Shown one piece after another: positions 20,953-25,432 of a DNA stretch of 64,000 nt. A program made the position numbers and the translations under genes. Below the pieces are notes generated by a model, which was not told where the DNA came from, ran no database searches, and was given only the letters and a program-made list of their open reading frames with translations. Position 1 is the first letter of the stretch. Each line of letters starts with the position of its first letter. The stretch covers positions 1 through 64,000 of the forward strand of contig JAFTID010000025.1 of assembly GCA_017457085.1 (NCBI GenBank). Reading direction: 5' to 3'. The stretch is from Phascolarctobacterium sp. GTDB taxonomy: Bacteria > Bacillota > Negativicutes > Acidaminococcales > Acidaminococcaceae.

Positions 20953-21088
20953 ACGCTAGAGATAATTTTGTCTTTATTCAGCGTACTACTCAACTTGCAA
21001 GTAAGGTGTGCCACGAGATACAATCTAATAAGTTTTTCTGTTTGCCGTTACAATAGAGTTAATACTTCTAGGAATGAGGTGTAATTGC

Positions 21089-21412
21089 TTGCAAACTGAA
21101 AACTATATCATAGACAGAGTCGAAAGAATTCGTCAGGCTAAAAATTTGAGCCGTTACCGTATGGCGCAAAGATCAGGCTTGTCTCAGTCTTCTATTTCTA
21201 ATTTGTTGAACAGAAGAAATGTTCCTTCTATTCAAACTTTAGAAAAAATTTGCAATGGTTTGGGTATGACCTTAGCTCAATTTTTCTCCGCAGATGGTGA
21301 AAGACCTGACTTAACTAAAGAACAGGAACATGTTTTGGACGTCTGGGATCAGCTGAATGAAATGGAAAGAGCTAGGGTAAAAGCATTTGTACAAGGCATG
21401 CGTGATATCTAA
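21089..21412 (+). CDS. XRE family transcriptional regulator
   Basis: A 107-residue protein. The N-terminal helix-turn-helix of the Cro/C1 type has RMAQRSGLSQSSISNLLNRR and SIQTLEKICNGLGMTLAQFF. The C-terminal half is short and acidic (LDVWDQLNEMERARVKAF). The TTG at 21089 is chosen because GAGGTG precedes it by 7 bases; the ATG at 21074 overlaps that site. Its targets are unknown. Two further XRE genes of like size lie at 24555 and 25097. Confidence 0.75.
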   Translation: MQTENYIIDRVERIRQAKNLSRYRMAQRSGLSQSSISNLLNRRNVPSIQTLEKICNGLGMTLAQFFSADGERPDLTKEQEHVLDVWDQLNEMERARVKAFVQGMRDI

Positions 21413-23827: not shown

Positions 23828-23838
23828 AACAAAACGAA

Positions 23839-23870
23839 AAGGGAAGTTGCGTTCGCAACTTCCCTTCTTT
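23839..23870. terminator. bidirectional terminator
   Basis: AAGGGAAGTTGC / GCAACTTCCCTT form a 12-pair stem with loop GTTC. T-rich tails are present on both strands (CTTT on plus, CCCTTTTCGTTTT on minus). It would end nth on the plus strand and the candidate RNA on the minus strand. Confidence 0.85.
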
Positions 23871-23989
23871 AGTTAGATGATGTTATTTGGCAGGCGTAGC
23901 GTTCCCCTGCATCTCTCGGATTTCTCCTGTCAGTACCATCGGCGTGTGGTCTCTACGAAATTTACCACCTCAAATAGCAACATCCTTCT
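23839..23989 (-). ncRNA. candidate stand-alone structured small RNA
   Basis: The minus strand carries a complete transcription unit: a promoter (23996-24024), about 110 bases of predicted structure, and a terminator. A terminal helix pairs 23971-23984 with 23879-23889. Inside it are hairpin P2 (GTGGT/ACCAC, loop with CGTAG), a GGA-GAAA-TCC hairpin, and hairpin P4 (GCAGG/CCTGC, loop with CTACG). The two loops are perfectly complementary over five bases, suggesting a kissing interaction. CGCCGATGGTAC (23933-23944) is also a 5S rRNA loop-E signature, but the domain holding 5S helix III is absent. I do not recognise the family. Confidence 0.5.
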
Positions 23990-23995
23990 GCTAAC

Positions 23996-24024
23996 ATTTT
24001 AAATTAGAATAAGATGCTAGTCAA
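23996..24024 (-). promoter_or_regulatory. promoter for the candidate small RNA
   Basis: On the minus strand TTGACT (24019-24024), a 17-base spacer and TAAAAT (23996-24001) form a near-consensus promoter. It overlaps the last codons and stop of the PBECR-like gene. Confidence 0.6.
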
Positions 24025-24406
24025 GTTTTTGGAAGATTATTCCCATATTTCTCAATCTTTGCTTAAATCTTTTATCTTTTTCTGCAACAGCAGTTATTAT
24101 AGAATTTTTATAATTAGGATTATCATCTTCTACTGCTAATCTTACAACGAGGTTGATGGATTTATTCTTGTCTTGAATTTTTTTACACATTAAAACGGTA
24201 TTAGGTTTATTGTCCTGCAAAATATAATCTGGATTTTCAACTATAGAAGCAAAAAGTGGAGCGTAGTTGAGAAAAAACTCTTCACCCCTACGAGTAATTA
24301 TATGTTCAGCTCGGTCATTTCTTAATATTACTTCGTTAGTTACAATTTTAGAAAAGCAATTTTGTAATTGTTCAATTTTTAATTTGCCTATCAGTTTATA
24401 ATCCAT
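24017..24406 (-). CDS. PBECR-like predicted nuclease domain protein
   Basis: A 129-residue protein. Segments such as TNEVILRNDRAEHI, then a PDYILQDNKPNTVLMCK-type strand pair, NLVVRLA and KNSIITAVAE resemble the phage Barnase-EndoU-ColicinE5/D-RelE-like (PBECR) nucleases, usually seen as phage or toxin modules. Here it is a single-domain orphan with no phage genes nearby. The conserved His in RAEHI and later Arg could be active-site residues, which is an inference. Its 3' end contains the promoter of the candidate RNA, so the two may be functionally linked. Confidence 0.5.
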   Translation of the reverse strand: MDYKLIGKLKIEQLQNCFSKIVTNEVILRNDRAEHIITRRGEEFFLNYAPLFASIVENPDYILQDNKPNTVLMCKKIQDKNKSINLVVRLAVEDDNPNYKNSIITAVAEKDKRFKQRLRNMGIIFQKLD

Positions 24407-24507
24407 GGCACGCTCACTATAGTAAAATTATCTTGCCTATATTTTATCAGATTTATCGTAAAAATTCAAACAAAGTTTTATTTTGTTTGGTGTAAATAAT
24501 ACTAATA

Positions 24508-24573
24508 TACTTAAAAATAAAAACGACTGTCAATGCGAACTTCGAGAGAAGTAGTTATTTGACAGTCGTTTTT
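24508..24573 (-). terminator. terminator overlapping the XRE stop codon
   Basis: AAAAACGACTGTCAA and TTGACAGTCGTTTTT pair over about 15 bases, with an inner ACTTC-TCTC-GAAGT hairpin and T-runs on both sides. One arm lies inside the last codons of the minus-strand XRE gene (stop at 24555-24557). Confidence 0.75.
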
Positions 24574-24896
24574 TTATTTGCAAGCATGACCATAAGTAAA
24601 TGATTGATTGCTTCTAATTCGTTTTCATCTAATTGGTCGAGCATTTTTAAGGTCGTTCGAAGTGTATGAGGTTGAGTAATTTCTACTCTAAAAAATTCTT
24701 GCGGAGTAATGTCAAGACATTCGCAAATGGAGAGGAAGCCTTGCATGGATGGAAGTGACAGTTTATTTTCTATTCTATTGATGTAACTGCTGTTTTGTCC
24801 CATTATCAAGCTTAATTCTCTTGCTGAAATATTACGTTCATCACGCAGTTCGTATATTCTTTCAGCAAAGAAGTCTTTAAAATCTGAGCTTTTCAT
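24555..24896 (-). CDS. XRE family transcriptional regulator
   Basis: A 113-residue protein with an N-terminal helix-turn-helix (ARELSLIMGQNSSYINRIEN, then MQGFLSICECLDITPQEFF) and a short helical C-terminus (MLDQLDENELEAINHLLMVM). It is transcribed away from the XRE gene at 25097, with a 200-base shared control region holding repeats of ACAAAGWC. It probably regulates that region, itself included. Confidence 0.8.
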   Translation of the reverse strand: MKSSDFKDFFAERIYELRDERNISARELSLIMGQNSSYINRIENKLSLPSMQGFLSICECLDITPQEFFRVEITQPHTLRTTLKMLDQLDENELEAINHLLMVMLANKKTTVK

Positions 24897-25096: not shown

Positions 25097-25432
25097 ATGA
25101 TGAAAGAAAATTTTAAACTTCTTGGTCGCAGGGTAAAGTATATGCGAATGGATAAGGGTATTTCTCAAACCAATATGGCGGAAATGTTGGGACTATCTCA
25201 AACCAATTTAAGCAATATGGAAGGTGGCAGGACTGCCATTACCACCCAGAACCTTTTCAAGATGCAAGAAATTATGGGCTGTAAGATAGCGGATTTTTTT
25301 GTGGACTTTGATAGCAAATTTGAAGAAGCATCTGAGTCTGAAACAGAGCAATCTGAAAAACAGGCTCTTGAACTTGAAGATGCAGTAAAGATTTTGAAAC
25401 TGCTTAAAGCGGTGGATATTAAAGGGTTATAG
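25097..25432 (+). CDS. XRE family transcriptional regulator
   Basis: A 111-residue protein with helix-turn-helix GISQTNMAEMLGLSQTNLSNME followed by ALTTQ-like spacing and an acidic Glu-rich tail (about 75-95). It lies 88 bases upstream of the second autotransporter on the same strand. No terminator was seen between them, so both may share the consensus promoter at 24976. It may therefore control surface-protein expression, an inference from position only. Confidence 0.8.
   Translation: MMKENFKLLGRRVKYMRMDKGISQTNMAEMLGLSQTNLSNMEGGRTAITTQNLFKMQEIMGCKIADFFVDFDSKFEEASESETEQSEKQALELEDAVKILKLLKAVDIKGL

Follow-up and report, generated by a model that had tools for sequence, protein, structure and literature searches.

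A skipping-rope RNA beside a PBECR2-type predicted toxin gene in Phascolarctobacterium sp.: a candidate RNA antidote

The window analysed here, a 64,000-nucleotide (nt) stretch of the Phascolarctobacterium sp. contig JAFTID010000025.1, carries on its minus strand a structured RNA of the skipping-rope family (RF02924) and, directly upstream on the same strand, a gene for a PBECR2-type protein. PBECR2 is a phage Barnase-EndoU-ColicinE5/D-RelE-like (BECR) nuclease. In further genomes, too, this protein is encoded upstream of the skipping-rope RNA. The initial annotation of the window described the RNA, whereas the adjoining nuclease gene, the real finding here, was overlooked. The RNA is likely to be the antidote, in the form of a type III-like antitoxin or an immunity RNA, of this neighbouring BECR-type phage toxin. 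If so, a function would be assigned to a widespread RNA family hitherto without a known role, a BECR-type family would join the few toxins neutralized by RNA and, to our knowledge, phage-borne polymorphic toxins would have their first instance of RNA immunity. The following features of the window are considered:

23882..23978, minus strand: core of the skipping-rope RNA RF02924, from P1 to P1' (cmscan, full-length match, 48.6 bits against a gathering cut-off of 36.7, E 1.7e-8; 83 bits with our own model)
23996..24024, minus strand: promoter of the RNA, TTGACT-N17-TAAAAT, with the -35 box overlapping the final codons and stop of the toxin gene
23837..23868, minus strand: intrinsic terminator behind the RNA, a 14-pair stem preceding a T-rich tail
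23953..23957, minus strand: 5' side of the pseudoknot, CGTAG, in the loop of P2 (covariation)
23895..23899, minus strand: 3' side of the pseudoknot, CTACG, in the loop of P4 (covariation)
23935..23943, minus strand: P3 hairpin, GCC-GAU-GGU (100% paired in 29 homologues, with a variable loop)
24017..24406, minus strand: PBECR2-type nuclease-like protein of 129 amino acids (aa), predicted toxin (PF18810, 35.3 bits against a cut-off of 27.1; PHROG 29609, E 1e-27)
23840..24505, no strand assigned: cassette of toxin and RNA, missing from the same nth / XRE gene site in two sister genomes

Association of the RNA with the toxin gene

The RNA and the protein were searched for separately in 380 Negativicutes genomes, and their coordinates were then compared. 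The protein profile comprised 15 sequences and was built from RNA-adjacent proteins, so the rates are valid for this PBECR2 clade and not for all PBECR domains. The RNA lies within 69 nt of 50 of the 52 full-length toxins: downstream on the same strand in 44 of them, with a gap of 1-48 nt, and in convergent orientation in six, at 42-69 nt. A toxin subgroup (L147, G106:C7, G108:C21, G234:C77, G250:C3, and G266:C227) is encoded convergently to its RNA. One of the two exceptions is at a contig edge; in the other (L137, genome G128) the toxin gene is slightly truncated at its C-terminal end and the RNA is located about 1.3 kb downstream, perhaps owing to an insertion. At independent loci picked by the protein alone, mostly from Clostridia, the RNA was found 35-56 nt downstream in 80 cases out of 80. 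Altogether, the RNA stands directly behind the toxin gene at well above 100 loci in bacteria and phages. In a number of loci, tandem divergent copies of the RNA follow a single toxin or MuF gene (genomes L032, L187, L190, and L193), and the same arrangement, reminiscent of immunity-gene arrays, occurs in phage contigs L102, L084, L087, L115, and L127.

The dependence is asymmetric. The 380 genomes contain 100 RNAs, of which 55 are near a full-length toxin, eight near a toxin fragment and 37 without a toxin, against none to two full-length toxins without the RNA among 52. The orphan RNAs retain 98.6% of helix pairs, compared to 98.4% in the partnered ones; being as well folded, they seem to be selected for without the toxin.

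A fortuitous link with MuF loci at large was rejected on the basis of the Ntox50 toxins of the same Negativicutes genomes, none of which (0/13) has the RNA nearby, 12 of them upon rescanning with filters off. The RNA was likewise not found near a distant PBECR2 protein with the highest Pfam score in the class (0/1). The subtype of the RNA matches the clade of the toxin in all 143 nearest neighbours, with two subtypes, two clades and no exception, and toxin and RNA distances are correlated (Mantel r 0.62, with a permutation maximum of 0.25). An independent base-pairing small RNA (sRNA) merely travelling with the toxin on mobile elements would agree with the sRNA class given in Rfam and with the many orphan copies. 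However, spacing of tens of nucleotides at 50/52 and 80/80 loci, clade specificity, matched subtypes and the empty Ntox50 loci are too tight for hitch-hiking, and this explanation is extremely improbable.

Toxin and RNA are also gained or lost as a unit. Two sister genomes (L281 and L282) align with the window up to 23817/23840 and resume at 24505/24506, so that a segment of about 665 bp with both elements is absent, and nth in both directly adjoins the XRE gene that lies upstream of the cassette in the window.

Structure and transcription of the RNA

The window RNA is a member of the known family RF02924, the sole Rfam family detected across the full 64 kb, and neither its class nor its kissing loop is new. 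The initial annotation had stated that the RNA matched no known class; the Rfam match refutes this on the very check that the annotation had proposed. Its other structural observations were largely borne out. The 157-nt minus-strand sequence folds better than shuffled sequences (z = -3.8). In an alignment of 29 homologues (A8), comprising elements P1, P2, P3, P3b, and P4 and the CGTAG/CTACG pseudoknot, 99.2% of cells are paired, against 86.5% upon shuffling and at most 41% when the structure is slid, and 16 pairs show changes on both sides. The predicted contact between the complementary CGTAG and CTACG loops is a true pairing, because it covaries across homologues: in the 29 homologues, 98.9% of the pseudoknot helix is paired, and four of its six pairs show changes on both sides. 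At least 5 bp of it are kept in 147 of 165 distinct RNAs, compared to at most 89 when partners are re-dealt, and dozens of differing duplexes occur among them, for example CGUCCG/CGGACG, CGUGGC/GCCACG, and CGCCGC/GCGGCG. Rfam 14 annotates the same pseudoknot (pk_1) with covariation for skipping-rope (PMC7779021, Figure 3A).

The annotation had also pointed to a 5S loop-E signature, CGCCGATGGTAC. This string is literally present, but its likeness to loop E is coincidental, since it corresponds to the P3 hairpin (GCC/GGU) with its variable loop. The annotation rightly held that the RNA is not 5S rRNA: no 5S match was obtained at E<=1, and a 5S origin was rejected as having no Rfam support. Two other candidates were rejected. 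A short open reading frame starting from the conserved GAUG reaches a stop in the window copy and, judged by eye, does not in several homologues, and an RNA-guided nuclease would need a free guide segment, which the RNA appears to lack. When phage and plasmid records were searched with the RNA by BLASTN, nothing useful was returned.

The promoter and terminator proposed for the window RNA were confirmed as parts of an independent unit on the minus strand. The boxes TTGACT (24024-24019) and TAAAAT (24001-23996) are separated by 17 nt and match the consensus at 10 of 12 positions. A promoter matching at least 9 of 12 positions, mostly ending 12-22 nt before P1, is present in 139 of 164 homologues (about 39 in shuffles), and a terminator-like site in 127 of 164 (19-31 in shuffles). 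Promoter motifs at a fixed distance and terminators behind the RNA indicate that it is probably a separate transcript. This bears on the possibility that the RNA regulates the toxin mRNA or the phage head operon in cis, acting as a terminator, attenuator or 3' stabilizer. Its usual location, 1-48 nt past the gene and followed by a terminator, would fit such a role, but the promoter motif of the RNA itself at a constant spacing, the convergent arrangements, the stand-alone modules without head genes and the orphan RNAs make it very unlikely. The occurrence of both gene orders likewise indicates that the RNA is more than a 3' untranslated region.

The predicted toxin and its phage relatives

Across the toxin clade a histidine is conserved in 146 of 146 sequences and a serine or threonine in 145 of 148; an arginine is conserved as well. 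According to PMC5512222, the BECR active site has a histidine in the N-terminal helix and a serine or threonine in strand 4, and the conserved H, R, and S are consistent with it. AF2 modelled the window protein with a pLDDT of 94.7, and His35 falls within helix 30-40 of this model. The model matches those of the C-terminal domains of phage minor capsid/MuF proteins. PADLOC and NCBIfam gave no match to the toxin. The same genome contains a second complete pair of toxin and RNA (L001:1090-1597, contig C19), the toxin of which is about 36% identical to that of the window, and the loop pair of its RNA is CGTACC/GGTACG.

A pattern scan of viral contigs revealed 34 with a confident RNA, and in 23 of them a toxin homologue is encoded just upstream, often as the C-terminus of a protein of 390-724 aa. 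Phage_Mu_F or Phage_min_cap2 domains are combined with PBECR2 in the five phage proteins tested; the window protein itself is stand-alone. Several loci have the order terminase-portal-MuF-RNA-scaffold/capsid, with gene names assigned by position and sequence. The phage RNAs without PBECR2 follow MuF or minor-capsid proteins with Ntox50, DUF6883, or a weak Tox-MPTase4 match, and RF02924 was above the cut-off at all seven such loci rescanned with Rfam. Phage contig L071 has an orphan RNA following a MuF protein whose terminal DUF6883 may itself be an undescribed toxin domain. The position of the phage RNA is that at which immunity genes of MuF polymorphic toxins occur (PMC5576092).

Candidate antidote function and related systems

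The toxin is a stand-alone protein, as in the window, or forms the C-terminal warhead of a polymorphic toxin of the phage MuF/minor-capsid type, and in this second form it may travel in the virion. The RNA would be transcribed from its own promoter and probably also together with the toxin gene, as the 3' portion of that transcript. It folds into a compact pseudoknot and would bind and block the toxin in the manner of type III RNA antitoxins. Protection of the producing cell or lysogen would result, and orphan RNAs would confer orphan immunity against an incoming phage toxin. A complete polymorphic toxin system, in which a MuF-borne BECR RNase warhead is packed by the phage, lysogens and producers are shielded by skipping-rope and bacterial orphans are protective, is plausible, with the balance slightly in its favour.

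AbiF-RCd22 comprises a prophage protein toxin and a structured RNA antitoxin, which binds the toxin directly and neutralizes it both in cis and in trans (PMC12373285). Here, too, a phage-borne RNase-like toxin stands beside an Rfam "orphan" structured RNA. AbiF, however, is a HEPN toxin with an upstream, co-transcribed RNA, whereas the PBECR2 gene is followed by an RNA with its own promoter. ToxIN similarly combines an endoribonuclease toxin, an activity predicted for the present protein, with a short pseudoknotted RNA having its own terminator, although the toxin families are unrelated. The asymmetry of orphans, the occurrence of both gene orders and the behaviour of AbiF-RCd22 and ToxIN together suggest that the RNA binds the protein and blocks it. 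The strict dependence of toxin on RNA would look alike if the RNA were a positive partner needed by the nuclease (a cofactor, chaperone, guide, or co-packaged RNA) rather than its inhibitor. This is unlikely: unlike a pure cofactor, 37% of the RNAs persist well folded without the toxin, the terminal helix closes the RNA and leaves no obvious free guide segment, and the RNA has its own promoter motif.

Several points weigh against the antidote reading. Toxicity, RNA cleavage and RNA binding of the protein, like neutralization and virion delivery, are properties that we infer. The BECR fold is suggested by Pfam and by viral predicted structures, and a PDB fold search with the window-protein model gave no significant match (best plausible 7m5f_C, TM 0.37). 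Within subtype I the correlation of toxin and RNA distances is weak (r 0.22, p 0.002, with a higher permutation maximum). The arrangement also differs from that of ToxIN, where tandem repeats precede the gene with a terminator in between, while here the protein comes first and the RNA, mostly in a single copy, is downstream or convergent.

The RNA family, the pseudoknot, PBECR2 and MuF toxins were each already known, and their pairing appears to be new. The window RNA does not differ structurally from RF02924, sharing its sequence, secondary structure and pseudoknot; Rfam lists the family as sRNA, and the portions of text examined describe it as such only, with no toxin partner mentioned. Pfam assigns the window protein to PBECR2, and it has the His and Ser/Thr that such a member should have; the available part of PMC5512222 mentions no RNA partner or antidote of PBECR ("ncRNA" occurs 0 times). 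The present loci resemble MuF polymorphic toxins in that the toxin domain forms a MuF/minor-capsid C-terminus, the RNA occupies the immunity-gene position, and orphan and tandem copies occur; the known immunities are, however, proteins, whereas the candidate here is an RNA (PMC5576092, PMC12226406). A literature search that excluded preprints found no report of a skipping-rope/PBECR2 pairing or an antidote role; an earlier remark in the 2017 paper defining the family (10.1093/nar/gkx699) is possible.

At the cassette site of the window, the terminator stem (23837-23868) lies between the convergent nth and RNA and may function on both strands. The site is surrounded by three small XRE-type regulator genes (21074-21412, 24555-24896, and 25097-25432), of which the two lying to the right of the cassette also occur in the sister genomes that are without it.
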